The notes beneath the pieces are model-generated. The model was given only the letters and a program-made list of their open reading frames with translations, was not told where the DNA came from and ran no database searches. Below are positions 4,038 through 42,283 of a stretch of DNA of 64,000 nucleotides, piece after piece. A program made the translations under genes and the position numbers. How positions within the stretch are numbered: the stretch's first letter is position 1; each line of letters begins with the position of its first letter. Origin of the DNA: Craspedostauros australis (taxonomy: Eukaryota; Bacillariophyta; Bacillariophyceae; Mastogloiales; Achnanthaceae); NCBI GenBank assembly GCA_026770025.1, contig JAMXDE010000004.1, forward strand, positions 2,232,001 through 2,296,000, given 5' to 3'.

Positions 4038-4047
4038 GAGAGTTCAC

Positions 4048-5971: not shown

Positions 5972-6008
<37 letters not shown>

Positions 6009-11858: not shown

Positions 11859-12492
11859 ATTGTGATGCTGGAGGTTCTCAATATGCCGTCGCAAAGAACA
11901 ACAATGCCATGAGAGAGTGGTTTTATTAGTCCAATGACGATGTCGTTGAAGTCGCCACGTTCTTCAGGGCAGTCGGAGCATGCCGTGTGTGCCTGCGCAG
12001 TTGAAATTTCGCGTTTAACAATCCACATTCACAGCCAACACAAAAAGAACAGACCCCAACATGGACCAAAACGATTCTGGTCATTCGTGATGTGGGGCAC
12101 AGGGAAACACAAGAGCAGAGAGAATCTCCAACGAAACGTCTCCACCGCTGTCTACAGGAGGTACTCGGTCGACCCTGAGCGTTGGGCTGTTGGGAGATGC
12201 AGATGTTCGCCACCGATCACGAACGACCAGTTCAGCGACGACGCCCGAATTGCTTTGTGCGCACCAACACCGTGCGACTGTGAACATTGGTGGCAACACC
12301 AAGAGATGATGACCACCAACCAAGGAAGGGGGACGCGATTCGGCTCGTCACATTTTTCCCCATCGCGTTTCAGGTTTCGATCCAACACAACGCAACAAGA
12401 GGCGACACACAACAACCTTCGCTACACCAACAATCGCCGAACTCACAACAAGCCAAGTGCTCCACGCCACTGAGCTCACATACGATGCCACC
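11859..12492 (+). other. Upstream region of STAND copy 1
   Basis: Presumed promoter and 5' UTR of copy 1. Homology to the 5' flanks of copies 2 and 3 begins only at about 12446 (ACAACAAGCCAAGTGCTCC). Everything upstream is unique to this copy, so its regulation probably differs. Confidence 0.5.
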
Positions 12493-15400
12493 ATGGTAGC
12501 TGACATGAGCAACAGCAACAGCAGCAACAGCAACAACAACGACAGCCCGCCGTCTCCTTCCACCATGGACAATCCCAACAAGTCTCCCGATCCAACCAGG
12601 AAACTGCATCGATCGAAGGAAACCGCACCATGGCGATCGGGTTCGTGCTTTCTCGGACGAGAAAAGGAACTGAAGCGGCTCCACCATGTCAACGAGAAGG
12701 TCATGGAATCATGGCGATCTCGCATTGCCGACGATGTTGCCAACTCTCCCTCCAAGCCGGCCATACAGGAAGAGAGCTCGCAAGAGACTGATGCCAATGA
12801 AAACGTGTACCCCGCCGTGCTGGTGTGGGGTATCAGCGGAACTGGTAAATCAGCCCTGATCGATCACTTTCTGCAAGAGTGCTGCACCTGCAACACAGAG
12901 CCAAAGCAGAAGACCGACAAGCAGCGAGAAGAAGATAAGAAGAAGACAACGACAACGCCAACGACAGAGACGAAGGAGAAGGCAGCGGCCAACACCTGCA
13001 CCTGCTGCTACGTGCTGCGCGGCAAGTACGACGAGTACACCGGTGGCAGCGATCCCTTCTCCGCCCTCATCCAGGCCATGCGCGACTTCACGTCTCAACT
13101 CAAGCGCGGACCGGCAGAAGAGCTCGATCGAATCCGCCGATGCGTCAAGGAAGCCTTTCCCACGGATGGATTCATTCCGCTCATCAAGGTGGTGCCGGCC
13201 CTTGCCATCCTCTCACCCCACGCAACAATCCATGAAGACGGATCGATCACTCATCACTCCACAAGCCAGCGCCGTTACAGTAAGTTCGTCGCTGGAGCTA
13301 TCAGCAATGCGGGAAGTATGAGTGTCAGCCAGAACCTAACCGAGGGCCTATCTTCGAGTGCCATGCCAGCAGCGGCTCAGCTGCTGGGTGATGGCTCATG
13401 GAACCAGCTGCAGTACATCTTCATGCAGTTCATCAAGGCCATATCTACGACGGAACGTCCCATCTACATGTTCCTGGATGATCTGCAGTGGTCATCTGGC
13501 GTTGGCTTGCGCCTCCTGGCCAGTCTGATGGAAGACACGGACCTCAAGAACTTCCTCCTTGTGGGTGCTGTCCGACAGGAGACGAATCCGCACAACGAGG
13601 AAGTGCTGGACTTGCCACCAAATCATGCGCTGTCGACTGCCTTCTTGCAAAAACTTGAGGCGACAGAAGACAGCGATGGTGGACTCAGCCACGGCGCTTC
13701 CCATCGGCAGCATCGAACGCTCAGCCACGTCACCATTGCAAACCTATCGTTGGCAGACACCACCGCATGGCTTGAGAGCATGCTGTGTTGCGAAGACATC
13801 GATATCCTCTCGAAGAAGCTGCACATCAAGACCAACGGCAACATCTTCTTCACGTTGCAGGCATTGGAAGAGCTGGAGAGGAAGAACATCCTCACATACA
13901 ACCAAGCTTCATCTCAGTGGGAGTGGAAGGTCCCAAACCAAGGAGGTGGCAAAGGCAGCAGCAGCTTCCGCGCCGTGGATCTGCCCATCAGTCACGACAT
14001 CGTCCACGCCATCGAGTCCAAGCTCAAGGATCTCCCACCACTGCTCCAAAGAGCCCTATCCGTCGCAGCCTACATCGGATCGACCTTCCACCTCTCTATT
14101 TTGCGGCTCGTGCTGCAGAATGAGCAAGGCCATGTGGATGGTGTGATCAGTGCTACGATCGATGAGGACGACATCGTCTCCAACGAACAAGCACTCTCTG
14201 AACTCCTGGAACAGGCCGTCCTCGAGCGTCTGGTCAACAACCCCATCGGCGGCACCATGTACAACTTCGCCCATGACCGCATCCAGCAGGCTGCACATGG
14301 AATGATCCCTCATGGCGAGGTCCGCGACAAGCTGCGGCTGCGTATCGGCCACTGCCTGCTGAAGAACTACCGGCTCGGACGGAATGACGACGATCCCTTG
14401 AAGGAGAATGACGATGACGACGAGCATGTCAAGTCCAAGGCACCATGCCATAAGCGGCTGCAACAGCACAGCATGCCAGCGCAATCAGCACAATCAACGC
14501 ACTCTACCTCGCAGACGAAACCATCCAAGTCATCATCCCCACGATTGGACGAGATCGAAGGCCTTCTCTTCGTGGCAATTGATCATCTCAACAGTATCCA
14601 GACCAAGGACCACATGTTCACCGTCATGATGAACCTCGAGGTTGGCGAGAAGGCATTGCAGATGGGGGCCTTGCAATCGGCATCCAACTACTTGGAGAAG
14701 GCGTTCACTGCCTTGCGTCGCGTGAAGAATCATACTTCCCCCAGTACCAACAGCACCAACTCCAACAGCAGTGCTGGCAGTATCAGCAGCACTTCTTCCG
14801 TCCAACAAGCTGTTCATCGATCAGCATGGAACAATGCAGAGCACTACGACGCGTGCTTGCGACTGTACCACGCCCGCTGTGATGTGGAGCTGTCGCTGAG
14901 CCACTTCGAGGTTGGGTACAAGCTCGGCTACGAAGTGTTGGACAGGGCTCGGTCGCTTGAGGACAAGCTCCCCACGTACTTCGCGATGGCCAAGGCGCTG
15001 GGCAGGGAAGATCGCCATCTGGACGCCCAGCAACTCGACAAACGAGCGCTCCGAGCAATGAAAGAGTTCCCGAAGAGATGGCACTTGCTGCGCAGCGCCA
15101 AGATGCTGCTGGATATCAAGTCGTTCCTGAAGAAGAACACGAACGAGCAGATCATGTCCTTGCCGCTGATGACAGGCGCCAGGACAATCTACGCAATGAA
15201 GATCGGCGCCGACTTTGGCGCTCGTGCCCATATCGTCCGAGACGTAACTGCGATGATATTCAATCTCTGCAAGGCAATAAAAAGAACCATTCGGTACGGC
15301 ATATGCGAAGACTCGGCAACTGCCTTCGTAACTTATGGTCTCATCATGAGCACCACAGGACACCAAACCCTAGCACAACGCTGCGCAGACATTGGATTTG

Positions 15401-16704
15401 GAATCATCGACAGAACCAACGGGAAGTCAAAGAGCGCGCTTGTTTCCCTTATCATAACGAGCTACATTTCGTCATTCAACGTGCCTTTCTTGGAGCTTCT
15501 ACAGCAATGTCGGAAGGGATACAAGGATTCAATGGAAGTTGGGGAATTCGAGATGGGCATAGTGACCTATCAAACCTTCATCATACTAGCTTTTGTAGCT
15601 GGATGCACACTACTTCCTCTGATCAAGGCAATCCAGGGAGCTCTCCAAAAAATCGACATTCATCAGGTCCTTTCCTTCAGCGGAATGGCCGAGGAAGTTT
15701 TGGTCATGCTGAAGTGGTTGGTTGGAGATACGCCGACCCCATGGCAAGACTTCGAGGCTGAAGCCGCACGAGGTCTCGACAAGCAGTCACTTGATCCGTC
15801 AGAAAGTTCAGGAGATACGGTGCACTTCTTTGCTCGGGTATTCCTCTCGATCTATCATCGGCGGTACACGACCGCAGAACGCTTCTTCAAGTGCTTTCAC
15901 TTCTTCGCTTCGAAAGACACATCCTATCTGAATTTGTTGGCGTTGCCGTTCTTCTCGGGCCTGATCGCGGCAGGAAGGTATAGGCAGACGGGGCACCGGC
16001 ACTACTTGTCAACGCTGCGCAAGTCCATCAAGACCCTCCGCAACATCGGGAAGACCAGAGGAAGGAACTGGATTCACACGGCATTCTTGCTGGAGGCAGA
16101 AGAACTGTCGATCACCGTAAAGGACAAGCGCCATTCCAGGATCCAGCACGCGTATAACCTTGCGATCATCACGGCCACGCAGTCCATGTGCATCCATGAT
16201 GTAGCTCTTGCTTATGAGCTGGCGGGGGAACACTACATCAGTCATGATGGCCCAGATCTGGTTGGTGACTACTTCGACAACGCCGTTGAGCACTACGCGG
16301 CATGGGGCTGCAAGACCAAGGTCGATGACATCAAGGAACGACGTGGTCAATTCGTGACCACACGATACCACCGCAGCAAGGCAAACCCAAAGCTCACGGA
16401 GTGGACCCGCCACAGCCACAAGATCGAAGAGCTATTCGGGATTGTGTCGAGGGCGAATCTCGCTGGATTCGAGGTTGTGCCACGGCCCAGTCCAACCGAA
16501 ATGCGTTCTGCAAATAGCCCTCGGTATAACGTTGATGGTTGCACAGATGCATCAGGTTCCAAGGCGAGGTCGAAGTCTAATAACACAGCCATAGCGTTTG
16601 ACGATGACAGCACAGAGCATCATGGCAAGCGCCACGACCACGACCACGACCACGACCATGATGATGACGATGATGATGTCTCGGCATTGACAGACATCTC
16701 ATAG
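12493..16704 (+). CDS. STAND/AAA_16 ATPase with helical repeats, copy 1
   Basis: 1403 residues. After a low-complexity Asn/Ser N-terminus an AAA_16-type NTPase domain starts at about residue 53 (FLGREKEL). Walker A GISGTGKS is at 113-120 and Walker B MFLDDLQW at 326-333. A winged-helix-like stretch (LPPLLQRALSVAAY) and the block YNFAHDRIQQAAH near 590 follow; this block is characteristic of the COG3899 ATPase module of bacterial multi-sensor kinases. The rest is TPR-like helical repeat, ending in a His/Asp tail. No kinase, GAF or histidine-kinase domain follows, unlike bacterial relatives. STAND ATPases are ligand-triggered oligomerising switches; the ligand here is unknown. ATG 12493 has an ideal context (GCCACCATGG). 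The upstream ATG used by copies 2 and 3 is absent. Copy 1 alone has a Thr-rich insertion near residue 158, and it departs from its paralogs from about residue 893 to the end. Confidence 0.88.
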   Translation: MVADMSNSNSSNSNNNDSPPSPSTMDNPNKSPDPTRKLHRSKETAPWRSGSCFLGREKELKRLHHVNEKVMESWRSRIADDVANSPSKPAIQEESSQETDANENVYPAVLVWGISGTGKSALIDHFLQECCTCNTEPKQKTDKQREEDKKKTTTTPTTETKEKAAANTCTCCYVLRGKYDEYTGGSDPFSALIQAMRDFTSQLKRGPAEELDRIRRCVKEAFPTDGFIPLIKVVPALAILSPHATIHEDGSITHHSTSQRRYSKFVAGAISNAGSMSVSQNLTEGLSSSAMPAAAQLLGDGSWNQLQYIFMQFIKAISTTERPIYMFLDDLQWSSGVGLRLLASLMEDTDLKNFLLVGAVRQETNPHNEEVLDLPPNHALSTAFLQKLEATEDSDGGLSHGASHRQHRTLSHVTIANLSLADTTAWLESMLCCEDIDILSKKLHIKTNGNIFFTLQALEELERKNILTYNQASSQWEWKVPNQGGGKGSSSFRAVDLPISHDIVHAIESKLKDLPPLLQRALSVAAYIGSTFHLSILRLVLQNEQGHVDGVISATIDEDDIVSNEQALSELLEQAVLERLVNNPIGGTMYNFAHDRIQQAAHGMIPHGEVRDKLRLRIGHCLLKNYRLGRNDDDPLKENDDDDEHVKSKAPCHKRLQQHSMPAQSAQSTHSTSQTKPSKSSSPRLDEIEGLLFVAIDHLNSIQTKDHMFTVMMNLEVGEKALQMGALQSASNYLEKAFTALRRVKNHTSPSTNSTNSNSSAGSISSTSSVQQAVHRSAWNNAEHYDACLRLYHARCDVELSLSHFEVGYKLGYEVLDRARSLEDKLPTYFAMAKALGREDRHLDAQQLDKRALRAMKEFPKRWHLLRSAKMLLDIKSFLKKNTNEQIMSLPLMTGARTIYAMKIGADFGARAHIVRDVTAMIFNLCKAIKRTIRYGICEDSATAFVTYGLIMSTTGHQTLAQRCADIGFGIIDRTNGKSKSALVSLIITSYISSFNVPFLELLQQCRKGYKDSMEVGEFEMGIVTYQTFIILAFVAGCTLLPLIKAIQGALQKIDIHQVLSFSGMAEEVLVMLKWLVGDTPTPWQDFEAEAARGLDKQSLDPSESSGDTVHFFARVFLSIYHRRYTTAERFFKCFHFFASKDTSYLNLLALPFFSGLIAAGRYRQTGHRHYLSTLRKSIKTLRNIGKTRGRNWIHTAFLLEAEELSITVKDKRHSRIQHAYNLAIITATQSMCIHDVALAYELAGEHYISHDGPDLVGDYFDNAVEHYAAWGCKTKVDDIKERRGQFVTTRYHRSKANPKLTEWTRHSHKIEELFGIVSRANLAGFEVVPRPSPTEMRSANSPRYNVDGCTDASGSKARSKSNNTAIAFDDDSTEHHGKRHDHDHDHDHDDDDDDVSALTDIS

Positions 16705-17025: not shown

Positions 17026-19680
17026 TTAGACTGTAATGGTCAGTTCACTCTCTTCAGAGTTGGTGATACTCTCGTCATCCTTCCCATGAAATACATTCCA
17101 GTGCAGCTTACAGACATGGATTCCACACACACTGCACACCCTTCTGACTCTGCTTGGTTCGTGTGTGGGCCTCCCTTCAAGCTTTGCTTTTGCTTTAAGA
17201 TAAGAACAGTATCTGCAAGTCTTCTGGCTTCCGTCCCTGCTGATGATCTCCTTGTGATCTTCAAATCTCCCCTCCAACCTCGATCTGGGCAGCTTTGGAG
17301 AGCAGGAGCTCATCCGATTCCTTGTTCGAATGGTGTGTGGGACTCTCTCGCGGCTTGACCTTGTTGCCATCAAGTCTGCCTCATTACCTTTGCGAACAAG
17401 AGCCTCAATCATTTCGATCATGAATGCCTTGCTTCTCAATCGATCTTGTTCCCTTGCCAGGTGATTGAATGCAATCCACGTATTGACGCGCATGATGTCC
17501 AACAAGTGGAACATCAGGGGCATCCATACTCTCTGAGCCCTCAAGTCAGGGCGATAGTATGCGATGAGTTGATCGCATTTGTCAACTCCAAGCATCCAAT
17601 GATTGTAGTCGTCAATCATCTTCGGGATTCGGATGTGAGCAGAGTACTTGCTCCCCCAGACCATCTCCAAGTGCCCTGCATTCACCTTGTTCTTTCTTGG
17701 CTTGTGGCGATTGCAAAGGACTGACTCGTTCCCATGGTGCACCGTACTGACCATCAACACCACATTGTTGTCAATCCACCTGGTCACCACGTACTGATTG
17801 TTCTCGATCCAGACATAGAGCGAGTTGAAGCGCATGTCATCGACCTCCTTCACCTCTGTGCTGGGGAAGCCGTTCCTCCTCCTTGCAGTGCCAACAACTC
17901 CGATGCCCATCTCTCTTGACTTCGCCATGACCGTCTTGGTTGTGAAGAGGTTGTCCATTGCAACGACATGGTGATTCGATGGGACCAATGTCTTCATGAG
18001 TTCCTCCACAGTGTTGTTGATCTTTGTTGTAGTATCCAGGCGTCCTGCAGGCAGTACATGATATCCAAATCCAGTCTTCGAGCAGCACAAAGCATAGAAT
18101 TTGTACCCCTCTTTGATGGGTTTCTGCTTCATCCGAGTGGTCTGCCTGGACCTGCCCTTGAATCTCACCATCATCTCATCGATTGCACAGGCAAAGCCTG
18201 GCTTGATGCAGATACTCTTCGACACCTGGTTGACGTGGTCAAGCAGTGGTTGGATCTTGTGATACCAGCTTCTGTTGCTGTCAACAATCGGTGTAGGAGG
18301 AATGTGGGGCTGCGTGTACAGGGTTTGGTTGGTGGCTGTGGATGCAGAGAGGCTCGAAGTTGCAGATCGAATTGAGGGCGAGCTGCTGATGGTTGCACTT
18401 GTGAGAGAATCGTACCGGCTCTGGACGAGATCGTCTTCGCTGTCACTGACATCCTCGTCATCTGAGTCAGTGGCCTTCTTCATGTCAGCAGCAATTGTGC
18501 CCCTCACAGCTGTGAAGTGAATGTGGTTCCACACAACTTCGTATCTTGCCCGTGGCATGTACTTTGTCAGCAAGTGGGATGGTACGCCAATGGAAGGGGC
18601 ACGCCAATAATCCCGCTTGGCCGGTGCCTTGAAGACTCCCATGTAGTAGTAGATTGCAAGGAAGAGGTAGATCTCCTTCACTGAAACGAAGCTGGCCGTG
18701 GATCCACTGTTGAAGATATGGTTGTTGGTGTGGACTTGAATGGATTCAATGAGTTGCCGTGAGAAGTAAACCTCCAGGATGGTATCAACTGATGGGTTGA
18801 CACCTCCAACTGACCGGAAGAGTGGTGCGTGGGAACTGATGGGAAGTGGTGCATAGGCAACATTTTTGTCGGCTCCATGCACAGGAATGGTTGTGCCATC
18901 AGCACCAGTTGCATTGCCATTTGCAATTCCGTTGTTGTCCATGATTGTGCCATCTGTAGCAGTTGCTCTGTCAGTAGCCATGGCAGCACCGATGAAAGTG
19001 GTGTGATCTGCACCCATTGATCCATCATTGATGGGTGTGCCATCGTTGCTGGGCGTGCCATTGTTGCTTGGTGTGCCATCGTGGCTGGGCGTGCCATCGT
19101 GGCTGGGCGTGCCATCGTGGCTGGCTGTGCCATCATTGGTGTCATTGGTTGCGATTGTGCCGTTTCTCTCATGATGGCTTTTTCGCCTCAACGCAAGTTT
19201 GCGTTTGAGGCGGTTGAGGATGCGACTGCTGCGCCTGTTGCTTTCGATTCTGCTTGCGGTGCTGCTGATGGTGGTGGTACCAGCCACGCTGATGCAGGCA
19301 CTGTTGCCATTGCATACTCCCTTGCTGCTCACAGTTGGTGCTCCTGCAGAGCGGTTTCCTGTCGCTCCATTAGTAGCATGAAGCAATTCTTTCCGATTGC
19401 CATTGAGGAATACCACAAAGGGTTCGGCACAATTGTAGCTTGCCGCGCCAATTGGGGGAGGCTTGGATGCTTTGACGTGCTTGGATGCTTTGACATGCTT
19501 GGATGTGGGAGAGGACGGAGATGATGTGGGCATGGCCGCGGATGGACGAGATCTGCTGTGCTTGTGTTGTGATGGGCGATCGATGATGTGGCATCGTTGG
19601 AATTGTGATTTCAATTTTGTGATCAACAATCGTGACGATCTCTTCGACGGTGAGAAGAAACAATCAAGGAGATTGAGCAC
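17026..19680 (-). CDS. PiggyBac-type transposase (DDE_Tnp_1_7), apparently intact
   Basis: 884 residues without interruption. The first ~290 are low complexity, including a repeated HDGTPS unit. The piggyBac core starts at about residue 300 (VDTILEVYFSRQLIESIQ). The predicted catalytic aspartates are D501 (AIDEMMVRFKG), D576 (VAMDNLFTT) and D700 with D703 nearby (MLGVDKCDQ). Spacings of 75 and 124 fit the family (78 and 101 in the insect reference protein). The C-terminus has a Cys/His cluster (CRYC, CSVCGIHVCKLH) like the family's C-terminal zinc domain that binds transposon ends. It cuts and pastes DNA at TTAA in the nucleus. I could not find flanking TTAA plus terminal repeats, so it may be a mobile element or a domesticated gene. 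It lies between STAND copies 1 and 2. The start could be a later ATG. Confidence 0.9.
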   Translation of the reverse strand: MLNLLDCFFSPSKRSSRLLITKLKSQFQRCHIIDRPSQHKHSRSRPSAAMPTSSPSSPTSKHVKASKHVKASKPPPIGAASYNCAEPFVVFLNGNRKELLHATNGATGNRSAGAPTVSSKGVCNGNSACISVAGTTTISSTASRIESNRRSSRILNRLKRKLALRRKSHHERNGTIATNDTNDGTASHDGTPSHDGTPSHDGTPSNNGTPSNDGTPINDGSMGADHTTFIGAAMATDRATATDGTIMDNNGIANGNATGADGTTIPVHGADKNVAYAPLPISSHAPLFRSVGGVNPSVDTILEVYFSRQLIESIQVHTNNHIFNSGSTASFVSVKEIYLFLAIYYYMGVFKAPAKRDYWRAPSIGVPSHLLTKYMPRARYEVVWNHIHFTAVRGTIAADMKKATDSDDEDVSDSEDDLVQSRYDSLTSATISSSPSIRSATSSLSASTATNQTLYTQPHIPPTPIVDSNRSWYHKIQPLLDHVNQVSKSICIKPGFACAIDEMMVRFKGRSRQTTRMKQKPIKEGYKFYALCCSKTGFGYHVLPAGRLDTTTKINNTVEELMKTLVPSNHHVVAMDNLFTTKTVMAKSREMGIGVVGTARRRNGFPSTEVKEVDDMRFNSLYVWIENNQYVVTRWIDNNVVLMVSTVHHGNESVLCNRHKPRKNKVNAGHLEMVWGSKYSAHIRIPKMIDDYNHWMLGVDKCDQLIAYYRPDLRAQRVWMPLMFHLLDIMRVNTWIAFNHLAREQDRLRSKAFMIEMIEALVRKGNEADLMATRSSRERVPHTIRTRNRMSSCSPKLPRSRLEGRFEDHKEIISRDGSQKTCRYCSYLKAKAKLEGRPTHEPSRVRRVCSVCGIHVCKLHWNVFHGKDDESITNSEESELTITV
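19032..19133 (-). repeat. 18-bp coding minisatellite in the piggyBac gene
   Basis: Tandem units around GTGCCATCGTGGCTGGGC encode six-residue repeats (xxDGTP) in the disordered N-terminal arm. Confidence 0.85.
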
Positions 19681-22098: not shown

Positions 22099-25000
22099 AT
22101 GTCATCGATCGTCAAACCCGCAACAAGCCAAGTGCTCCACGCCACTGAGCTCACATACGATGCCACCATGGTGGCTGACATGAGCAACAGCAACAACATC
22201 AACATCAACAACAACAACGACAGCCCGTCGTCTCCTTCCGTCATGGACAATCCCAACAAGTCTCCCGATCCAACCAGGAAACTGCATCGATCGAAGGAAA
22301 CCGCACCATGGCGATCGGGTTCGTGCTTTCTCGGACGAGAAAAGGAACTGAAGCGGCTCCATCATGTCAACAAGAAGGTCATGGAATCATCGCGATCTCG
22401 CATTGCCGACGATGTTGCCAACTCTCCCTCCAAGCCGACCATACAGGAAGAGAGCTCGCAAGAGACTGATGCCAATGAAAACGTGTACCCCGCCGTGCTG
22501 GTATGGGGTATCAGCGGAACTGGTAAATCAGCCCTGATCGATCACTTTCTGCAAGAGTGCTGCACCTGCAACACAGAGCCAAAGCAGAAAACCGACAAGC
22601 AGAAAGAAGAAGATAAGAAGAAGACAGCGGCCAACACCTGCACCTGCTGCTACGTGCTACGCGGCAAGTACGACGAGTACACCGGTGGCAGCGATCCCTT
22701 CTCCGCCCTCATCCAGGCCATGCGCGACTTCACGTCTCAACTCAAGCGCGGACCGGTAGAAGAGCTCGATCGAATCCGCCGATGCGTCAAGGAAGCCTTT
22801 CCCACGGATGGATTCATTCCGCTCATCAAGGTGGTGCCGGCCCTTGCCATCCTCGCGCCCAACGCAACGATCCATGAAGACGGATCGATCACTCATCGCT
22901 CCACAAGCCAGCGCCGTTACAGTAAGTTCGTCACTGGAGCTATAAGCAATGCGGGAAGTATGAGCGTCAGCCAGAACCTAACCGAGGGCCTATCTTCGAG
23001 TGCCATGCCAGCAGCGGCTCAGCTGCTGGGTGACAGCTCATGGAACCAGCTGCAGTACATCTTCATGCAGTTCATCAAGGCCATATCCACGACGGAACGT
23101 CCCATCTACATGTTCCTGGATGATCTGCAGTGGTCATCCGGCGTTGGCTTGCGCCTCCTGGCCAGTCTGATGGAAGACACGGACCTCAAGAACTTCCTCC
23201 TTGTGGGTGCTGTCCGACAGGAGACGAATCCGCACAACGAGGAAGTGCTGGACCTGCCACCAAATCATGCGCTGTCGACGGCCTTCTTGCAAAAACTCGA
23301 GGCGACAGAAGACAGCGATGGTGGACCCAGCCACGGCGCTTTCCATCGGCAGCATCGAACGCTCAGCCACGTCACCATTGCAAACCTATCGTTGGCAGAC
23401 ACCACCGCATGGCTAGAGAGCATGCTGTGTTGCGAAGACATCGACATTCTCTCGAAGAAGCTGCACATCAAGACCAACGGCAACATCTTCTTCACGTTGC
23501 AGGCATTGGAAGAGCTGGAGAGGAAGAACATCCTCACATACAACCAAGCTTCATCTCAGTGGGAGTGGAAGGTCCCAAACCAAGGAGGTGGCAAAGGCAG
23601 CAGCAGCTTCCGCACCGTGGATCTGCCCATCAGTCACAACATCGTCCACGCCATCGAGTCCAAGCTCAAGGATCTCCCACCACTGCTCCAAAGAGCCCTA
23701 TCCGTCGCAGCCTACATCGGATCGACCTTCCACCTCTCTATTCTGCGTCTTGTGCTGCAGAATGAGCAAGGCCATGTGGATGGTGTGACCAGTGCTACGA
23801 TCGATGAGGACGGCATCATCTCCAACGAACAGGCACTCTCTGAACTCCTGGAACAGGCCGTCCTCGAGCGTCTGGTCAACAACCCCATCGGTGGCACCAT
23901 GTACAACTTCGCCCATGATCGCATCCAGCAGGCTGCGCATGGAATGATCCCTAATGGCGAGGTCCGCGACAAGCTGCGGTTGCGCATCGGCCACTGCCTG
24001 CTGAAGAACTACCGGCTCGGACGGAATGACGACGATCCCTTGAAGGAGAATGACGATGACGACGAGCATGTCAAGTCCAAGGCACCATGCCATAAGCGGC
24101 TGCAACAGCACAGCATGCCAGCGCAATCAGCACAATCAACGCACTCTACCTCGCAGACGAAACCATCCAAGTCGTCATCCTCACGATTGGACGAGATCGA
24201 AGGCCTTCTCTTCGTGGCAGTTGATCATCTCAACAGCATCCAGACCAAGGACCACATGTTCACCGTCATGATGAACCTCGAGGTTGGCGAGAAGGCGTTG
24301 CAGATGGGAGCCTTGGAATCGGCATCCAACTACTTGGAGAAGGCGTTCACTGCCTTGCGTCGAGTGAAGAATCATGCTTCCCCCACCAACAACAGCACCA
24401 ACTCCAGCAGCAGTGCTGGCAGTATCAGCAGCACTTCTTCCGTCCAACAAGCTGCCCATCTCTCAGCGTGGGACAATGCAGAGCACTACGACGCGTGCTT
24501 GCGACTGTACCACGCCCGCTGTGACGTGGAGCTGTCGCTGAGCCACTTCGAGGCTGGGTACAAGCTCGGCTACGAAGTGTTGGACAGGGCTCGGTCGCTT
24601 GAAGACAAGCTCCCCACGTACTTCGCGATGGCCAAGGCGCTGGGCAGGGAAGATCGTCATCTGGATGCCCAGCAACTCGACAAACGAGCGCTCCGAGCGA
24701 TGAAAGAGTTCCCGAAGAGATGGCACTTGCTGCGCAGCGCCAAGATGCTGCTGGATATCAAGTCGTTCCTGAAGAAGAACACGAACGAGCAGATCATGTC
24801 CTTGCCGCTCATGACAGATCCGGGTCAGATCTACAGCATGAGGATCGGCACCGACTTCGGCATTCGCTCCAACCTCATCCGCAAGGTGGTTCCGTACCTC
24901 TTCAATCTGTTCAGGACGATTCAGTGTACCATTCGGTACGGCATCACCGAAGACGCGGCACCTGCTTTCGGAGCCTATGGCATCCTCATGAGTAGCATAG

Positions 25001-26310
25001 GAGACCAAACGATGGCGCAACGCTGTGCCGATCTTGCAACCGCAGTCATCGATAAAACCAACGGAAAGTCGAAGAGCGCGATTGTTTCCATGATCAGAAC
25101 CAACTACATCATCTCTTTCACCGCTCCTTTTCTCCAGCTAATGCGGGAATGTCGAAAGGGGCATCACGATTCGATGGAAGTTGGAGAGTTTGAGATGGGC
25201 ATCGCGAACTACCAAACTACTATCATGATGGGTCTTGCAATTGGATGCTCGTTGCCTACTCTGATCAAGGCGTCCCATTCAGTGCATCAAAAAATCGCCA
25301 TCCACCAAGTTCGTTCCTTGGGCGAAATGGCTGGGGGAATGGCCCAGATGTTGAAATGGTTGGCTGGTGATGAGGCGATCCCATGGCAAGACTTCGAGGC
25401 TGAAGCCGCACGAGGTCTCGACAAAGAGTCATTGGATCCATCTGAAATTTCCTCAGATACGATGAATCTATTTGCTCGAGAGTCGATCTTGATTTACCAT
25501 CGGCGGTATGAAACCGCGGAACGCTTCTACGACTCATTTGACTTCTTTGCTTCCAAAGACCCAGCCTATCTGATGGTTATGGCCTCACCCTTCTTCGCAG
25601 GCCTGATCGCGGCGGGAAGGTACAGAGAGACAGGACACCGCCGCCATCTCGCAACCCTGCGCAAGTCCATCAAGACCCTCCGCAACATCGGCAAGACCAG
25701 AGGAAGGAACTGGATTCACAAGGCATTCTTGCTCGAGGCTGAAAAGCGCTCGATCACTATCAAGAACAAGCGCCATTCCAGAATCCAGAACGCGTACAAC
25801 CTGGCGATCGTCACCGCCGCGCAATCTATGTGCGTCCATGATGTAGCTCTCGCCTGTGAGCTGGCAGGCGAGCACTATGCTCAGAACGATGCCCCAGACC
25901 TGGTCAGCGACTACTTCGACAACGCTGTTGATCACTACACAGCATGGGGATGCAAGACCAAGGTGGATGACATCAAGGAACGACGTGGCCAATTCGTCAC
26001 CACACGGTACCGACATGGAAACCTCAACCCGAAGCTGGCGGAATGGACCCGCCGCAACCGCAAGCTCGATGAGCTGTATGGAATTGCATCGCCTGCGAAT
26101 CTCTCTGGATTCGAGATCATACCGAAACCCGGTCCAGCCGACATGCGTTCTAGAAACAGTACGCGCAAGGGCATCGATGGCTGCACTCACGCCACAGGCT
26201 CCAAGACGTACAAGACAGACGCATTGTCCGAGGATGGCGAGGCAGAGTACGACTATGATGACATGGACGAGCACGATGACGATGTCTCGGTGCTAACGTA
26301 CGGTTCTTGA
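22099..26310 (+). CDS. STAND/AAA_16 ATPase with helical repeats, copy 2
   Basis: 1403 residues from ATG 22099 (CACCACCATGT); a second well-placed ATG at 22168 matches the start of copy 1. Walker A GISGTGKS is at 137-144; Walker B MFLDDLQW and the YNFAHDRIQQAAH block are conserved. The domain order is as in copy 1: AAA_16, winged-helix-like linker, TPR-like helices, acidic tail ending DDDVSVLT. The first ~960 residues differ from copy 3 by only about twenty substitutions plus low-complexity indels. Residues 962-1156 differ from copy 3 at 54 positions without gaps. The last 247 residues are identical to copy 3. The variable block lies in the helical-repeat part, where STAND proteins usually recognise their trigger. 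The downstream 3' flank is also shared with copy 3. The role is unknown; signalling or a self/non-self sensor is inference. Confidence 0.9.
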   Translation: MSSIVKPATSQVLHATELTYDATMVADMSNSNNININNNNDSPSSPSVMDNPNKSPDPTRKLHRSKETAPWRSGSCFLGREKELKRLHHVNKKVMESSRSRIADDVANSPSKPTIQEESSQETDANENVYPAVLVWGISGTGKSALIDHFLQECCTCNTEPKQKTDKQKEEDKKKTAANTCTCCYVLRGKYDEYTGGSDPFSALIQAMRDFTSQLKRGPVEELDRIRRCVKEAFPTDGFIPLIKVVPALAILAPNATIHEDGSITHRSTSQRRYSKFVTGAISNAGSMSVSQNLTEGLSSSAMPAAAQLLGDSSWNQLQYIFMQFIKAISTTERPIYMFLDDLQWSSGVGLRLLASLMEDTDLKNFLLVGAVRQETNPHNEEVLDLPPNHALSTAFLQKLEATEDSDGGPSHGAFHRQHRTLSHVTIANLSLADTTAWLESMLCCEDIDILSKKLHIKTNGNIFFTLQALEELERKNILTYNQASSQWEWKVPNQGGGKGSSSFRTVDLPISHNIVHAIESKLKDLPPLLQRALSVAAYIGSTFHLSILRLVLQNEQGHVDGVTSATIDEDGIISNEQALSELLEQAVLERLVNNPIGGTMYNFAHDRIQQAAHGMIPNGEVRDKLRLRIGHCLLKNYRLGRNDDDPLKENDDDDEHVKSKAPCHKRLQQHSMPAQSAQSTHSTSQTKPSKSSSSRLDEIEGLLFVAVDHLNSIQTKDHMFTVMMNLEVGEKALQMGALESASNYLEKAFTALRRVKNHASPTNNSTNSSSSAGSISSTSSVQQAAHLSAWDNAEHYDACLRLYHARCDVELSLSHFEAGYKLGYEVLDRARSLEDKLPTYFAMAKALGREDRHLDAQQLDKRALRAMKEFPKRWHLLRSAKMLLDIKSFLKKNTNEQIMSLPLMTDPGQIYSMRIGTDFGIRSNLIRKVVPYLFNLFRTIQCTIRYGITEDAAPAFGAYGILMSSIGDQTMAQRCADLATAVIDKTNGKSKSAIVSMIRTNYIISFTAPFLQLMRECRKGHHDSMEVGEFEMGIANYQTTIMMGLAIGCSLPTLIKASHSVHQKIAIHQVRSLGEMAGGMAQMLKWLAGDEAIPWQDFEAEAARGLDKESLDPSEISSDTMNLFARESILIYHRRYETAERFYDSFDFFASKDPAYLMVMASPFFAGLIAAGRYRETGHRRHLATLRKSIKTLRNIGKTRGRNWIHKAFLLEAEKRSITIKNKRHSRIQNAYNLAIVTAAQSMCVHDVALACELAGEHYAQNDAPDLVSDYFDNAVDHYTAWGCKTKVDDIKERRGQFVTTRYRHGNLNPKLAEWTRRNRKLDELYGIASPANLSGFEIIPKPGPADMRSRNSTRKGIDGCTHATGSKTYKTDALSEDGEAEYDYDDMDEHDDDVSVLTYGS

Positions 26311-26720: not shown

Positions 26721-27571
26721 GAATCATCTACTTAACTTCAGTGTGAACCAGCAATCGAAAACGAGAGCGACGCCACGGTGAGAACATGGGGCACCAGGTG
26801 ACGTGATATTGCACATATATGAAGAACAAGCCTATCTTCATACAAAGCAGAACTCCGATTTATCATCCCCATTGTACCATAGGTCAGCGACGGTACTTTC
26901 CTATGTCCATCCTGCTCTGGCAGCTGTTTCATTGTTTGGATGGCCGCGTTGTTGGAGATTCGATATGGGGGTTGCGGTAGATTAAATAATATTTTCTCTT
27001 CAGAACAACAAATTGGTTAGGGATTTACGGGATAATAATTAATACAACAGGAAATGAGTTTCCAGACACCAAACAACGCAAGAGATCGAAGGAAAAATGT
27101 AATTTAATGTAGTTTGTGCGGATAGAGTGAAAGTTGTGGTAATGAATGTAAATGATAAAAAAACTTCGATACCAAGCTTTACGTTGTGGAGCGTGGATGA
27201 TGCGAAGATGGTTACTGTTGGAGATGGAACAACTTCACCCGTAACATGTTCATGGAAGAGCCAAAGGGCAAGGATTCGCAAACCGTCACACAAACTGCGA
27301 TGCGAAGAAGCTCGTATGGTACGACACTGCATTCAATGTACCAGCACATGCTTGTTGCTCGCACAATCCGAATACACCACCAACGTTGAGAGCCCTTTTG
27401 TACCAGAAACTTGCGAGCGATTTGAGACGCAAGCAAGTTTGCCCACGTAGACAAAATGATTATCGTGTCGTGATCCTCTTTGTTAACCTGATGGTGCTGG
27501 CAGAAAGCCACGTGTTGCATTTTCACGAAGAGGGGTCAACGAACAGAAACCAATGGGATGTTGTACATACG
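26721..27571. other. Unassigned AT-richer DNA
   Basis: No gene or repeat was recognised on either strand. Short frames lack protein-like composition. Confidence 0.45.
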
Positions 27572-27619
27572 ACCTCCAGGTCGCAGTTGATGCACTCACG
27601 ATAACACTAGTTGTGGAGT
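27572..27619 (-). repeat. 48-bp inverted repeat, left member
   Basis: Exact reverse complement of 37110-37157. The outer edge begins ACCTCCAGGTCGCAG; the inner edge reads CTAGTTGTGGAGT. A truncated third copy is at 52351-52374. Confidence 0.9.
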
Positions 27620-29497
27620 GTTTTTTGAGTTTTACTCGTGATGAGTCGTGATAAAGTAGACTAAATTAGAGCACACCCAAAACCATCCAAACAACTGCTT
27701 ATGATGTTATATCTCAACAACGCACCATTTAAAATTAAAACTAGACAGTTCATTCGGACGCTTGGCTATCGTTTATTCTGAATATCTTAGTTAAATTTGT
27801 ATGAACTTTATTTTTAATGTCGTTTTGGCTTGCTGTCTGTCAGGTGGTGGGTGCAAAAAATTCTCGATGGCACCATGCTGCCCTACCTTCAGCACCCATG
27901 ATCATCATTATCATCCCTGGCATTTTCACAATCTGCGCACCACACTGGCTCCGGATACCCCCCATCTATCCACTCCATGAAGATCCTGCGCAGATAGCCG
28001 CATCTCATACTCCAAACTGTCCCTGCACTGAAACGCAGAATTTTCGAACACCCGATTCCGACACGGATGCCGTTCGGATTTGGATCCGTATCTCGTCGAT
28101 ACGATCCTTGCAGCTCCTTCACATGCCCCTCATGCGTTCCCACATTCTCTGGCGACACACTGATGTGTTCAGAATGGGTGGGGCGCTCATACCTCCAAAG
28201 GTGCACCTCCATGTGATGATGCCATCATGATGTTTTTCCGACACCCAAAAAAATCCCTTTCGTGTGCATCCCAGGCTGCGGCCTCTTCCAGACCGTATCT
28301 GCGCAGGATACTTCGCCATGGCCATCTTGAGTTGATTCCTAACACATCTTGAATGGGTGGTTTGGCGATATGGGTGACTTTTCAATGGCACCCATCACCA
28401 GCGAAGTCACGTGATGTGTCCGCCGCCACCCGCCAAAAAACTCTTGCCCGCCACTTGTTTCTTGCGGAGGGCACCTTCCAGGCCACCCCCGACCCTCAAA
28501 CTTCGTGTGCATCTTCACCGTATCCTCTTGGATACGTCTTGCCCATCCATGGTCGTTGGAATGGCCTGTGCATTCCAGGCAGAGACCATATCCAATGAGC
28601 ATATTTTCCTCCGAATCGTGCCGTGTGCGCGTGGGCCTGCCACGGCCCCAAATAAGCCAAGATGACATCCCGCTCTCGCTCATCCACCAAACTTTCCATG
28701 GCGGTTCCGCCTATGCCCTCAGATCTTGCACTGGACCGCTGGTTGTGGCAGTGCCGTCGATGCCATTCGACAGCGCTTGTGGAGTTTTGTTGTGTTTCTC
28801 CATTGTCGTGTTGTTGTGTTGTGTTTGGTGTTCTCAAACAGTTTTTGCTGTTGGGGGCCATGGAGATTAACCACAATTCTACCGACTGTGCCAACCAATG
28901 CGAACACTTTGCGAGTCCCGAATTGCACCTCCATTCCACAACGACACAGCGAAGGCACAAAATCCTCCTCACAAAGTCGACAGAGGAAACACAGCGCATC
29001 TCAAACGAGTTCCTCCTGTTTCTCTGCTGCTTGTAGTCATAGCTTACACAGAATGTAGAATGACTGTGACCTTCCCACAAAGGAAAGAGTGGATGGTACA
29101 AGGCACCTTGTGACCATCCTCCTGTGTTGTCCATGCCGTTCTGTGGTGCGCTGCGCCGTGCTGCGCGTCGATGACTGGTGATGCGCTGTGCTGTGCTGTG
29201 CTGTGCTGTTCTCCTTGTGTGCCTGGTGTGCGTCATGACCAGCCAATCTCGTACAATCAGCTTGCAACCTCTATTGACACACAGCTAGTATTCACCATGA
29301 GTTCCCTTGTTGTTAGACCATGTGTGCTGAATCAATCCAATCGTTGTTCGAGTTTTGAGTTCTTTGTGTCAGTCACACTTCGATTCGAAAGATCCAAGAA
29401 AACTACTCGAAAGAATTCGGAAAATGTGATGCGGGTTTCAGACCCAAGACAAAATTAGGAAGATGATCCAAGAGGATCAAAGAGACTCTATTAGACC
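27620..29497. other. Dispersed-repeat DNA upstream of the mariner-like gene
   Basis: 27620 to about 28210 is a diverged reverse-complement match to about 51990-52350. Shared landmarks are the ATGATCATCATTATCAT and CATCTATCCACTCCATGA blocks and a TTGAGATATA motif. The rest holds overlapping short frames with no recognised product. A GCTGT microsatellite occurs near 29186-29212. Confidence 0.5.
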
Positions 29498-29527
29498 TCC
29501 AAACATGTGTCATTGCACATGTTTGGA
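29498..29527. repeat. 12-bp perfect hairpin upstream of the mariner-like gene
   Basis: TCCAAACATGTG and CACATGTTTGGA are separated by six bases, about 270 bp before the transposase start. It could be a terminal or regulatory structure. Confidence 0.7.
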
Positions 29528-29794
29528 CACAGATACACTAATTAGCAAGAGTAACCAGAAGTTTGGCATGGTTACAACACGATGGACAATGGTGAATAGC
29601 ACCATTAGTGGAGCCAAGAAGTAGAAAACAGGAAGATGATGAGCTCTTATTGATGAGCTCATAATCTCAACAAACTTAACTTTGTAAACCATCACTTCAA
29701 ACAAGCACACACAATAACACAGTTCTATCAACCTTCACCAACATTGGACGTAGTTGTATCATCCCGCAACCACTGAACTCTTCACCTCGCAAGC

Positions 29795-37109: not shown

Positions 37110-37157
37110 ACTCCACAACTAGTGTTATCGTGAGTGCATCAACTGCGACCTGGAGGT
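37110..37157 (+). repeat. 48-bp inverted repeat, right member
   Basis: Perfect reverse complement of 27572-27619. It begins ACTCCACAACTAGTGTTATC and ends TGGAGGT. Interior flanks of the two members do not match. Confidence 0.9.
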
Positions 37158-38011: not shown

Positions 38012-41000
38012 ATGTCATCGATCGTCGAACCCGCAACAAGCCAAGTGCTCCACGCCACTGAGCTCACATACGATACCACCATGGTGGCTGACATGAGCAA
38101 CAGCAACAACAACAACAACAACAGCAACAACGACAGCCCGCCGTCTCCTTCCACCATGGACAATCCCAACAAGTCTCCCGATCCAACTAGGAAACTGCAT
38201 CGATCGAAGGAAACCGCACCATGGCGATCGGGTTCGTGCTTTCTCGGACGAGAAAAGGAACTGACGCGGCTCCACCGTGTCAACAAGAAGGTCATGGGAT
38301 CATCGCGATCTCGCAATGCCGACGATGTTGCCAACTCTCCCTCCAAGCCGACCATACAAGAAGAGAGCTCGCAAGAGACTGATGCCAATGAAAACGTGTA
38401 CCCCGCCGTGCTGGTATGGGGTATCAGCGGAACTGGTAAATCAGCCCTGATCGATCACTTTCTGCAAGAGTGCTGCACCTGCAACACAGAGCCAAAGCAG
38501 AAGACCGACAAGCAGAGAGAAGAAGATAAGAAGAAGGCAGCGGCCAACACCTGCACCTGCTGCTACGTGCTGCGCGGCAAGTACGACGAGTACACCGGTG
38601 GCAGCGATCCCTTCTCCGCCCTCATCCAGGCCATGCGCGACTTCACGTCTCAACTCAAGCGCGGACCGGTAGAAGAGCTCGATCGAATCCGCCGATGCGT
38701 CAAGGAAGCCTTTCCCACGGATGGATTCATTCCGCTCATCAAGGTGGTGCCGGCCCTTGCCATCCTCGCGCCCAACGCAACGATCCATGAAGACGGATCG
38801 ATCACTCATCACTCCACAAGCCAGCGCCGTTACAGTAAGTTCGTCACTGGAGCTATAAGCAATGCGGGAAGTATGAGTGTCAGCCAGAACCTAACCGAGG
38901 GCCTATCTTCGAGTGCCATGCCAGCAGCGGCTCAGCTGCTGGGTGACAGCTCATGGAACCAGCTGCAGTACATCTTCATGCAGTTCATCAAGGCCATATC
39001 CACGACGGAACGTCCCATCTACATGTTCCTGGATGATCTGCAGTGGTCATCCGGCGTTGGCTTGCGCCTCCTGGCCAGTCTGATGGAAGACACGGACCTC
39101 AAGAACTTCCTCCTTGTGGGTGCTGTCCGACAGGAGACGAATCCGCACAACGAGGAAGTGCTGGACTTGCCACCAAATCATGCGCTGTCGACGGCCTTCT
39201 TGCAAAAACTCGAGGCGACAGAAGACAGCGATGGTGGACCCAGCCACGGCGCTTTCCATCGGCAGCATCGAACGCTCAGCCACGTCACCATTGCAAACCT
39301 ATCGTTGGCAGACACCACCGCATGGCTAGAGAGCATGCTGTGTTGCGAAGACATCGACATTCTCTCGAAGAAGCTGCACATCAAGACCAACGGCAACATC
39401 TTCTTCACGTTGCAGGCATTGGAAGAGCTGGAGAGGAAGAACATCCTCACATACAACCAAGCTTCATCTCAGTGGGAGTGGAAGGTCCCAAACCAAGGAG
39501 GTGGCAAAGGCAGCAGCAGCTTCCGCACCGTGGATCTGCCCATCAGTCACAACATCGTCCACGCCATCGAGTCCAAGCTCAAGGATCTCCCACCACTGCT
39601 CCAAAGAGCCCTATCCGTCGCAGCCTACATCGGATCGACCTTCCACCTCTCTATTCTGCGTCTTGTGCTGCAGAATGAGCAAGGCCATGTGGATGGTGTG
39701 ACCAGTGCTACGATCGATGAGGACGGCATCATCTCCAACGAACAGGCACTCTCTGAACTCCTGGAACAGGCCGTCCTCGAGCGTCTGGTCAACAACCCCA
39801 TCGGTGGCACCATGTACAACTTCGCCCATGATCGCATCCAGCAGGCTGCGCATGGAATGATCCCTCATGGCGAGGTCCGCGACAAGCTGCGGTTGCGCAT
39901 CGGCCACTGCCTGCTGAAGAACTACCGGCTCGGACGGAATGACGACGATCCCTTGAAGGAGAATGACGATGACGACGAGCATGTCAAGTCCAAGTCCAAA
40001 GCCGACGGCAAGAGCAGCAGCCCAAGGAGGGATAGTCTCGACAAAGCCAAGGCACAAAGCCGCCGGCGGCTGCAACAGCACAGCATGCCAGCGCAATCAA
40101 CGCGCTCTACCTCGCAGACGAAACCATCCAAGGCGTCATCCTCACGATTGGACGAGATCGAAGGCCTTCTCTTCGTGGCAGTTGATCATCTCAACAGTAT
40201 CCAGACCAAGGACCACATGTTCACCGTCATGATGAACCTCGAGGTTGGCGAGAAGGCGTTGCAGATGGGAGCCTTGGAATCGGCATCCAACTACTTGGAG
40301 AAGTCGTTCACTGCCTTGCGTCGAGTGAAGAATCATGCTTCCCCCATCAACAACAGCACCAACTCCAGCAGCAGCAGCAACAGCAGTACCAGCAGTGTTA
40401 GCAGCACTTCTTCCGTCCAACAAGATGCCCATCTCTCAGCATGGAACAATGCAGAGCACTACGACGCGTGCTTGCGACTGTACCACGCTCGATGTGATGT
40501 GGAGCTGTCGCTGAGCCACTTCGAGGCTGGGTACAAGCTCGGCTACGAAGTGTTGGACAGGGCTCGGTCGCTTGAGGACAAGCTCCCCACGTACTTCGCG
40601 ATGGCCAAGGCGCTGGGCAGGGAAGATCGTCATCTGGACGCCCAGCAACTCGACAAACGAGCGCTCCGAGCGATGAAAGAGTTCCCGAAGAGATGGCACT
40701 TGCTGCGCAGCGCCAAGATGCTGCTGGATATCAAGTCGTTCCTGAAGAAGAACACGAACGAGCAGATCATGTCCTTGCCGCTCATGACAGATCCGGGTCA
40801 GATCTACAGCATGAGGATCGGCACCGACTTCGGCATTCGCTCCAACCTCATCCGCAAGGTGGTTCCGTACCTCTTCAATCTGTTCAGGACGATTCAGTGT
40901 ACCATTCGGTACGGCATCACCGAAGACGCGGCACCTGCTTTCGGGGCCTATGGTGTTATGATGGCCATGACAGGAGACCAAGCGATGGCACAACGCTGTG

Positions 41001-42283
41001 CCGATCTTGCAACCGCAGTCATCGATAAAACCAACGGAAAGTCGAAGAGTGCGATTGTTTCCATCATCAGAACCAACTTCATCTCATCGTTCAACTCTCC
41101 TTACCTAGACTTGATGCGAGAATGCCGGCAGGGATATAATGATTCGATGGAAGTTGGGGAGTTTGAGATGGGCATCGTGAACTACCAAATCACTATCATG
41201 CTGGGTTTTCAGATTGGAGGCGCATTGCCTCCTCTGATCAAGGCAACACAAGGAGTGCTTCAAAAAATCGACATCCATCAAGTTCGTTCCATGAGCAAAG
41301 TGGCTGGGATATTGGCCCTGCTGTTTAAGTGGCTGACTGGTGACGAGGCGATCCCATGGCAGGACTTCGAGGCTGAAGCCGCACGAGGTCTCGACAAAGA
41401 GTCATTGGATCCATCTGAGGTTCCAGCAGATTTGATAAACTTTTATGCTCGGGAGTGGACCCTTGTATACCATCGGCGGTACGAAACTGCGGAACGCCTC
41501 TTCGACTCATTTGACTTCTTTGCTTCCCAAGACCAAACCTATCTGATGGTTATGGCCTCACCCTTCTTCGCAGGCCTGATCGCGGCGGGAAGGTACAGAG
41601 AGACAGGACACCGCCGCCATCTCGCAACCCTGCGCAAGTCCATCAAGACCCTCCGCAACATCGGCAAGACCAGAGGAAGGAACTGGATCCACAAGGCATT
41701 CTTGCTCGAGGCTGAAAAGCGCTCGATCACTATCAAGAACAAGCGCCATTCCAGAATCCAGAACGCGTACAACCTGGCGATCGTCACCGCCGCGCAATCT
41801 ATGTGCGTCCATGATGTAGCTCTCGCCTGTGAGCTGGCAGGCGAGCACTATGCTCAGAACGATGCCCCAGACCTGGTCAGCGACTACTTCGACAACGCTG
41901 TTGATCACTACACAGCATGGGGATGCAAGACCAAGGTGGATGACATCAAGGAACGACGTGGCCAATTCGTCACCACACGGTACCGACATGGAAACCTCAA
42001 CCCGAAGCTGGCGGAATGGACCCGCCGCAACCGCAAGCTCGATGAGCTGTATGGAATTGCATCGCCTGCGAATCTCTCTGGATTCGAGATCATACCAAAA
42101 CCCGGTCCAGCTGACATGCGTTCCAGAAACAGTACGCGCAAGGGCATCGATGGCTGCACTCACGCCACAGGCTCCAAGACGTACAAGACAGACGCATTGT
42201 CCGAGGATGGCGAGGCAGAGTACGACTATGATGATATGGACGAGCACGATGACGATGTCTCGGTGCTAACGTACGGTTCTTGA
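38012..42283 (+). CDS. STAND/AAA_16 ATPase with helical repeats, copy 3
   Basis: 1423 residues from ATG 38012 (CACCACCATGT), the start shared with copy 2. Walker A GISGTGKS is at 137-144; Walker B and the COG3899-like FAHDRIQQAAH block are intact. Copy-specific changes include an insertion of about 20 residues (ADGKSSSPRRDSLDKAKAQS) after the DDDDEHVKSK acidic stretch, and an expanded Ser/Asn linker near residue 790. The window from about 40953 to 41546 differs from copy 2 at 54 of 195 residues; upstream and downstream are near-identical or identical. It has the same TPR-like C-terminal half and DDDVSVLT tail. It lies 11.7 kb after copy 2 in the same orientation, with transposon DNA between. 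An upstream in-frame ATG at 37745 would add 89 residues not present in the paralogs. Confidence 0.9.
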   Translation: MSSIVEPATSQVLHATELTYDTTMVADMSNSNNNNNNSNNDSPPSPSTMDNPNKSPDPTRKLHRSKETAPWRSGSCFLGREKELTRLHRVNKKVMGSSRSRNADDVANSPSKPTIQEESSQETDANENVYPAVLVWGISGTGKSALIDHFLQECCTCNTEPKQKTDKQREEDKKKAAANTCTCCYVLRGKYDEYTGGSDPFSALIQAMRDFTSQLKRGPVEELDRIRRCVKEAFPTDGFIPLIKVVPALAILAPNATIHEDGSITHHSTSQRRYSKFVTGAISNAGSMSVSQNLTEGLSSSAMPAAAQLLGDSSWNQLQYIFMQFIKAISTTERPIYMFLDDLQWSSGVGLRLLASLMEDTDLKNFLLVGAVRQETNPHNEEVLDLPPNHALSTAFLQKLEATEDSDGGPSHGAFHRQHRTLSHVTIANLSLADTTAWLESMLCCEDIDILSKKLHIKTNGNIFFTLQALEELERKNILTYNQASSQWEWKVPNQGGGKGSSSFRTVDLPISHNIVHAIESKLKDLPPLLQRALSVAAYIGSTFHLSILRLVLQNEQGHVDGVTSATIDEDGIISNEQALSELLEQAVLERLVNNPIGGTMYNFAHDRIQQAAHGMIPHGEVRDKLRLRIGHCLLKNYRLGRNDDDPLKENDDDDEHVKSKSKADGKSSSPRRDSLDKAKAQSRRRLQQHSMPAQSTRSTSQTKPSKASSSRLDEIEGLLFVAVDHLNSIQTKDHMFTVMMNLEVGEKALQMGALESASNYLEKSFTALRRVKNHASPINNSTNSSSSSNSSTSSVSSTSSVQQDAHLSAWNNAEHYDACLRLYHARCDVELSLSHFEAGYKLGYEVLDRARSLEDKLPTYFAMAKALGREDRHLDAQQLDKRALRAMKEFPKRWHLLRSAKMLLDIKSFLKKNTNEQIMSLPLMTDPGQIYSMRIGTDFGIRSNLIRKVVPYLFNLFRTIQCTIRYGITEDAAPAFGAYGVMMAMTGDQAMAQRCADLATAVIDKTNGKSKSAIVSIIRTNFISSFNSPYLDLMRECRQGYNDSMEVGEFEMGIVNYQITIMLGFQIGGALPPLIKATQGVLQKIDIHQVRSMSKVAGILALLFKWLTGDEAIPWQDFEAEAARGLDKESLDPSEVPADLINFYAREWTLVYHRRYETAERLFDSFDFFASQDQTYLMVMASPFFAGLIAAGRYRETGHRRHLATLRKSIKTLRNIGKTRGRNWIHKAFLLEAEKRSITIKNKRHSRIQNAYNLAIVTAAQSMCVHDVALACELAGEHYAQNDAPDLVSDYFDNAVDHYTAWGCKTKVDDIKERRGQFVTTRYRHGNLNPKLAEWTRRNRKLDELYGIASPANLSGFEIIPKPGPADMRSRNSTRKGIDGCTHATGSKTYKTDALSEDGEAEYDYDDMDEHDDDVSVLTYGS

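Follow-up and report, generated by a model that had tools for sequence, protein, structure and literature searches.

The window analyzed here comprises 64,000 nucleotides of the diatom Craspedostauros australis (C2:2232001-2296000 in a genome of 74.8 Mb on 90 contigs) and carries three tandem genes, c1, c2, and c3, each a single uninterrupted frame of about 1,400 amino acids. A fourth copy (c4) lies just outside the window, with c1 to c4 in order on the same contig; c5 is located on a different contig, and c6 is a broken copy. We lean toward the view that these genes form part of a repertoire of STAND (signal transduction ATPases with numerous domains)-like switches, in which a uniform engine is combined with a sensor diversified by patchwise exchange and perhaps weak diversifying selection, each copy recognizing its own ligand and selection keeping the sensors different. 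Residues ~905 to 1200 (c2 numbering) are the chief variable part in clades A, B, C, and D of the family. In most close pairs, this region is enriched in nonsynonymous change over its flanks, and the alignments show that patches within it are exchanged among copies. The coordinates in the window are as follows.

12457..16704, + strand: first copy (c1), open throughout, with an uncertain start codon
15169..16056, + strand: corresponding variable region in c1
22099..26310, + strand: copy 2 (c2), 1403 aa
22486..23205, + strand: AAA_16 nucleotide-binding domain of c2, residues 130-369 (Pfam 2.2e-15, 58 bits versus a cut-off of 32.6)
24181..26130, + strand: predicted tetratricopeptide repeat (TPR)-like alpha-solenoid of c2, residues 695-1344 (AlphaFold2 and search against solved structures [PDB])
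24811..25698, + strand: variable region of c2 with all clades considered, residues ~905-1200
24982..25566, + strand: c2/c3 segment singled out by the initial annotation, residues 962-1156
26278..26298, + strand: acidic tail motif DDVSVLT at the c2 C terminus, a family signature (alignment columns and genome pattern scan)
38012..42283, + strand: copy 3 (c3); the listed open reading frame (ORF) opens at 37745, and 38012 is the ATG aligned to the c2 ATG
40784..41671, + strand: corresponding variable region in c3

The initial annotation had described c2 residues 962 to 1156 as a sharply bounded hypervariable segment relative to c3, and its counts were exact on recount: 54 of 195 amino acids and 22 further silent codons differ, with no indel. 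The 247 residues 3′ of the segment are indeed identical in protein (five silent differences). Upstream of it, we found 28 amino-acid differences, many of them within low-complexity stretches, instead of about twenty. Synonymous divergence (dS) between c2 and c3 is 0.325 in the segment versus 0.013 in the N-terminal core (residues 100 to 640); the flank blocks gave 0.073 (800 to 900), 0.044 (901 to 961), and 0.007 (1157 to 1340). Since dS differs this strongly between the segment and the flank blocks, the flanks are as anomalous as the segment itself. A likelihood scan for an interval of synonymous excess, covering residues 470 to 1340, placed it best at 956 to 1140 for c2/c3 (twice the log-likelihood ratio [2lnLR], 62.7), at 958 to 1166 for c2/c4, at 983 to 1167 for c3/c4, and at 902 to 1332 for c1/c2. 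Based on the dS contrast and the scan intervals among c2, c3, and c4, the sequences show that the flanking parts were homogenized among neighboring copies of clade A (c1 to c5), whereas residues ~905 to 1200 retain an older divergence. Read in this way, the segment edges in clade A copies are recombination edges. Inside the block, c3 is closer to c5 than to c2 (dS of 0.18 versus 0.33), whereas outside it c3 is closer to c2 than to c5 (0.013 versus 0.078 in the core). The N-terminal part of c1 is common with c2 to c4, but from residue ~905 onward, the C-terminal half of c1 shows old divergence (dS of 0.59 to 0.80 versus c2 to c4). There is no support for the c2 block having been acquired from a remote subfamily, because its nearest relatives belong to its own clade (85, 85, and 83%); a chimera of distant paralogs, the caveat raised in the initial annotation, is likewise not supported. 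The homology of c2 with c3, c4, and c5 ends 7 to 11 bases before the c2 ATG and continues 86 to 410 bases beyond the stop codon, and the region upstream of c2 (before 22092) is unlike the upstream regions of the other three.

A family of such genes in a microalga had been suggested, and very many places were detected in this diatom. The 195-residue segment as a query matched at least 149 genome places at an E value of ≤0.01 (among the best 150 of 181 candidates, two rows being parts of c6). A clade D query matched at least 150 places at ≤0.001 (best 150 of 185 candidates), and 142 of its 150 listed places lie in frames of at least 1,000 aa. The 29 usable members were grouped into clades A, B (four members), C (six), D (two), and E (two or three). 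Clade tests were performed without L013, which is a fragment of the broken c6, and without nine unclustered members (L017, L018, L020, L021, L025, L026, L028, L029, and L032); L018 served as a third sequence for clade D in codon models only, and c1 was omitted from most clade A tests. In L040 (C1:754001-764000, frame 2359-6855), a retroelement of the copia type (RVT_2, copia gag, and Pol_BBD) splits the broken copy c6 within the variable region, and both parts of the gene contain the same 5 bases at the c2 equivalent of 25087-25091, as in a target-site duplication.

Across clades, the variable stretch is wider than the sharp bounds that hold for c2/c3. The clearest case is the clade B pair L030/L037, located 22.5 kb apart on contig C34 and sharing 1,351 identical upstream bases. 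Between these two genes, we counted 45 nonsynonymous and 9 synonymous changes within the region versus 4 and 14, respectively, over 481 codon positions of the flanks; the differences form a sharp peak in the variable region. Clade B varies there without elevated dS, and two of its pairs displayed just weak synonymous peaks, located outside the region. dS is also elevated in the region in clade A, in clade D (914 to 1092; 2lnLR, 39.5), and in the clade C pair L027/L034 (1012 to 1157; 23.2), with weaker clade C peaks for L022/L027 (1027 to 1112; 15.5) and L022/L034 (1027 to 1247; 10.0). The ratio of nonsynonymous to synonymous changes, compared between region and flanks, differed at p<0.05 in six of nine close pairs. 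One-ratio dN/dS estimates were 0.77 in the region versus 0.13/0.10 in the flanks for clade B, 0.37 versus 0.12/0.14 for clade C, and 0.23 versus 0.09/0.16 for clade D with L018; replacement change thus exceeds that of the flanks in most clades.

Exchange is apparent in clade B. In the flanks, one pairing, by contig, is backed by 55 of 60 informative sites, whereas in the region it is backed by only 7 of 25. Block 905-960 favors one topology by 13 log-likelihood units and block 1011-1060 another by 11. Because blocks inside the region follow conflicting genealogies, we conclude that the copies exchange patches. The search for conversion tracts proposed in the initial annotation agreed: a permutation test of identical tracts yielded global P values of 0.0037 (clade A), 0.038 (clade B), and 0.001 (clade C), while a simpler and weaker runs test on informative sites gave 0.051 (A) and 0.023 (B).

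Selection was examined by codon models implemented in our own script rather than PAML, using three to six sequences per clade, so that the p values are indicative. Under M1a, the region sites of clades A and B separated into roughly equal halves, one near a dN/dS of 0 and the other near 1. A class above 1, comprising 1 to 3% of sites, improved the fit in clades A (p=0.008) and B (p=1e-4), and in clade C under M8 (p=0.034). With separate trees per block, the result for clade B remained (p=0.0023). At positions that also vary in three or more of the other clades, the dN/dS of clade B was 5.0 (P=0.001). Diversifying selection is therefore supported in one clade, B, only.

The ATPase proposed in the initial annotation was recovered, with AAA_16 above the Pfam cut-off in every window copy. 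The P-loop NTPase core motifs GISGTGKS and FLDDLQW (MFLDDLQW in c2), which we take to be Walker A and Walker B, are intact in c1 to c3 as read from the sequence. In STAND NTPases, a winged-helix domain follows the nucleotide-binding domain; here, residues ~410 to 640 align collinearly with those of bacterial AAA_16 proteins and gave no match to a winged-helix model. The helical-repeat sensor was borne out as well. AlphaFold2 modeled residues 695 to 1344 (45 rows) as a TPR-like superhelix with a pLDDT of 83.9 and a pTM of 0.81, as opposed to a pLDDT of 34 from the three window copies alone. Ligand-binding TPR sensors among the solved structures found in PDB include MalT and Rap proteins; a sequence search of the solved structures with a 12-row profile yielded no relative at E≤0.1. 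In the predicted structure, changes favor alternate solenoid helices, presumably the inner ones. The idea of exposed helix faces is not supported: comparing the variability moment with the hydrophobic moment of the bacterial relatives gave no consistent angle. At the C terminus, alignment columns 1394 and 1397 to 1400 of the tail motif are invariant in 12 rows, and the acidic pattern DDxSVLTD has 36 exact matches genome-wide versus 0 for the reversed control. Of these, 32 lie directly downstream of listed family places; the others (C8:758174, C19:182878, C24:287039, and C51:304395) are not tied to such places.

Bacterial relatives were found through a DNA motif scan; peptide-pattern homolog searches in viral contigs and genome contigs yielded no relative. 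All 79 motif-bearing bacterial ORFs matched the diatom profile (E≤1e-3), and for 49 the match exceeded 200 of the 296 variable-region positions. Alignment A3 includes 42 of the ORFs, namely those with one long match spanning the region, after deliberate exclusion of L077, L127, and L133, all from Legionella. The diatom module is collinear with bacterial kinase-AAA_16 proteins over the ATPase, linker, and sensor. The layout of these proteins is Pkinase-AAA_16-helical-GAF-(PAS)-HisKA/HATPase or cyclase; judging from record titles, they occur in cyanobacteria, myxobacteria, Chloroflexi, and others. The kinase was present in four of four relatives scanned and the C-terminal domains in three, since the remaining one is truncated where its locus ends. 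In contrast, kinase, GAF, and histidine-kinase domains were absent by Pfam in all eight diatom members scanned. NCBIfam gave weak matches far under the cut-off, the best being a TOMM kinase/cyclase model, and of two proteins run through PADLOC, one had a single weak match, to AAA.

The proposed mechanism builds on this architecture, in which the AAA_16 ATPase is joined to a TPR-like superhelical sensor by a linker that aligns collinearly with its bacterial counterparts. By analogy with MalT and Rap, the variable region would line the ligand groove of the superhelix, and each copy would bind a different ligand, such as a non-self or pathogen molecule, a mating or colony signal, or an environmental compound. 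Excerpts of a study of MalT couple inducer binding to the opening of a closed ADP form (PMC6468293), and a reference title therein names maltotriose as the ligand of its sensor; Rap proteins bind peptides in the TPR sensor according to structure entry titles. Ligand binding would similarly open the ADP-closed ATPase and lead to assembly. Selection would keep the sensors distinct and the engine uniform. Since no known effector domain was found, output would go through a partner, perhaps docked at the conserved acidic tail. The TPR sensor is shared with the MalT-type STAND proteins MalT and PH0952, whereas AAA_16, the lack of a known effector domain, the huge paralog family, and the variable sensor region set the diatom proteins apart. 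An effector domain at either end is described as general but not universal in STAND proteins (PMC6468293, in part).

Several results weigh against this reading. Over the region, dN exceeded dS significantly in none of 15 pairs; the smallest bootstrap P value, 0.108, belonged to L030/L037 with a dN/dS of 1.49. Among six pairs of c2 to c5, dN/dS in residues 962 to 1156 was 0.27 to 0.57, for these copies an outcome that the initial annotation had itself named as contradicting it. Only clade B nears 1; clades A, C, and D have region means well under that value, and in clade A the value of 0.40 does not rise above one of the flanks (0.44/0.28). The class above 1 holds 1 to 2% of sites under M2a, gave no better fit in clade D, was not significant in clade C under M2a (p=0.11), and dropped to p=0.069 (M2a) in clade A once each block had its own tree. 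For positions that also vary in three or more of the other clades, dN/dS stayed below 1 in clades A (0.60), C (0.72), and D (0.64). Enrichment over the flanks was not significant in three of the nine pairs, L033/L036 (0.11), L027/L034 (0.51), and c3/c4 (0.065; 0.008 with a narrower window and nearly full-length flanks). Synonymous peaks also occur elsewhere, in L023/L027 (574 to 682; 37.7) and L019/L024 (470 to 699; 13.8). The inner-helix bias is not significant in clades B and D, variability follows no consistent helical face and is unrelated to hydrophobicity, and no effector domain of a known kind was found by Pfam in the eight diatom members scanned, where only AAA_16 passed the cut-off. 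The original proposal is thus partly supported: a variable region recurs in independent clades, with a nonsynonymous excess over the flanks in most close pairs, but dN does not significantly exceed dS.

These results would suit relaxed constraint combined with uneven gene conversion, in which the sensor is the least constrained part, the conserved ends are homogenized, mismatch hinders conversion in the region after it has diverged, and ligand diversity is unselected. dN/dS is at or under about 1 nearly everywhere, dS is elevated along with dN in clades A and D, and three pooled recent pairs gave 0.80 to 0.98 in the region, alike for inner helices, outer helices, and loops, versus 0.14 in the flanks. 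However, about half of the region sites in clades A and B are held near 0, nearly all listed places are in long open frames, and the same region varies in several clades; in clade B, moreover, M2a is preferred even with separate trees per block, and the sites shared with other clades stand far above 1. We consider this explanation possible but rather unlikely. An artifact of collapsed or switched haplotypes appears very improbable. The flanking DNA of clade B members on C3 and C34 is 87 to 90% alike, so some of these copies might be alleles rather than paralogs. Yet c1 to c4 are ordered on one contig, as are L030 and L037, the frames are open, and the pattern recurs in several clades.

A further alternative concerns the ligand. 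Receptors for self, mating, or environmental signals, with divergence tracking the ligand and no arms race, would share the mechanism of the switch repertoire, and the probabilities of the two overlap; taken separately, we consider this proposal possible but rather unlikely. The sugar and peptide pheromone bound by MalT and Rap, and the location of the bacterial relatives in kinase and cyclase signaling proteins, speak for it, whereas repertoire size and exchange resemble candidate recognition families of fungi and brown algae (parts of PMC4986451 and PMC11378527). In the parts consulted, fungal NOD-like receptor (NLR)-like STAND proteins (WD, ANK, and TPR) share a conserved NTPase, a variable repeat sensor, and exchange between members, and positively selected positions of those with TPR lie on the concave face (PMC4986451). 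The fungal proteins named there have NB-ARC or NACHT (one AAA), highly alike repeats varying in number, and effector domains; the diatom c2/c3 segment shows no indel, its repeats are degenerate, and a known effector domain was not found. Brown algal NB-ARC-TPR and LRR-ROCO proteins, likewise from stramenopiles and with variable repeat sensors, are described as candidate immune receptors diversified by shuffling of repeat exons (PMC11378527, in part). The diatom family differs in its single open frames (c1 to c3; most relatives match over one frame) and its patch exchange, and according to the same source, diatoms and other SAR species each have at most four ROCO genes. By analogy, the diatom family may work like the fungal and brown algal families while belonging to neither. 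NB-ARC or NACHT was not matched by Pfam in any of the eight members scanned. The designation NLR-type in the initial annotation is therefore an analogy only, given that these members have no known effector domain, and because of AAA_16, the lack of a known effector domain, and the lack of repeat exons, immunity is one ligand class among several. An immune role of the family is thus conceivable by analogy; that at least ~150 intracellular receptors of bacterial-kinase ancestry provide NLR-like, possibly anticipatory non-self recognition independent of NB-ARC/NACHT seems to us doubtful.

Between c1 and c2, a DDE_Tnp_1_7 gene (Pfam: Transposase IS4; 17026-19680, − strand) was found, presumably of the piggyBac type. 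Between c2 and c3, a 55-bp inverted repeat (96%) encloses 9.6 kb (27568-37161). Because the stretch at ~27565-28400 occurs at 39 or more further places (best 40 of 419 candidates), 28 of these at 100%, this looks like a recently active terminal inverted repeat element. By eye, the proteins at 34768-36117 (− strand) and 57699-59804 (+ strand) seem to be relatives: both begin with PT-rich sequence and have a cysteine-rich region in common; for the former, Pfam gave the PT repeat alone, slightly under the cut-off. The silicon-transporter family PF03842 matched 88 stretches in the genome (best E value, 4e-249), some within the family array on C3, and one of 14 control genomes, under the cut-off. 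These matches point to a diatom, although a few other silicifying protists also have such transporters.

Little is settled about how unicellular algae sense viruses, bacteria, parasites, or one another within the cell. No comparable diatom family was found in titles and opening abstracts of the open-access literature searched, an incomplete collection, and the genome paper of Seminavis robusta (PMC7335047) does not use the terms AAA, STAND, and ATPase in its main text. The present family, large and mostly intact, combines a uniform switch with a reshuffled sensor and thereby offers a concrete, testable candidate. If the proposed reading is true, the core of bacterial signaling kinases would have been turned into a eukaryotic recognition repertoire.

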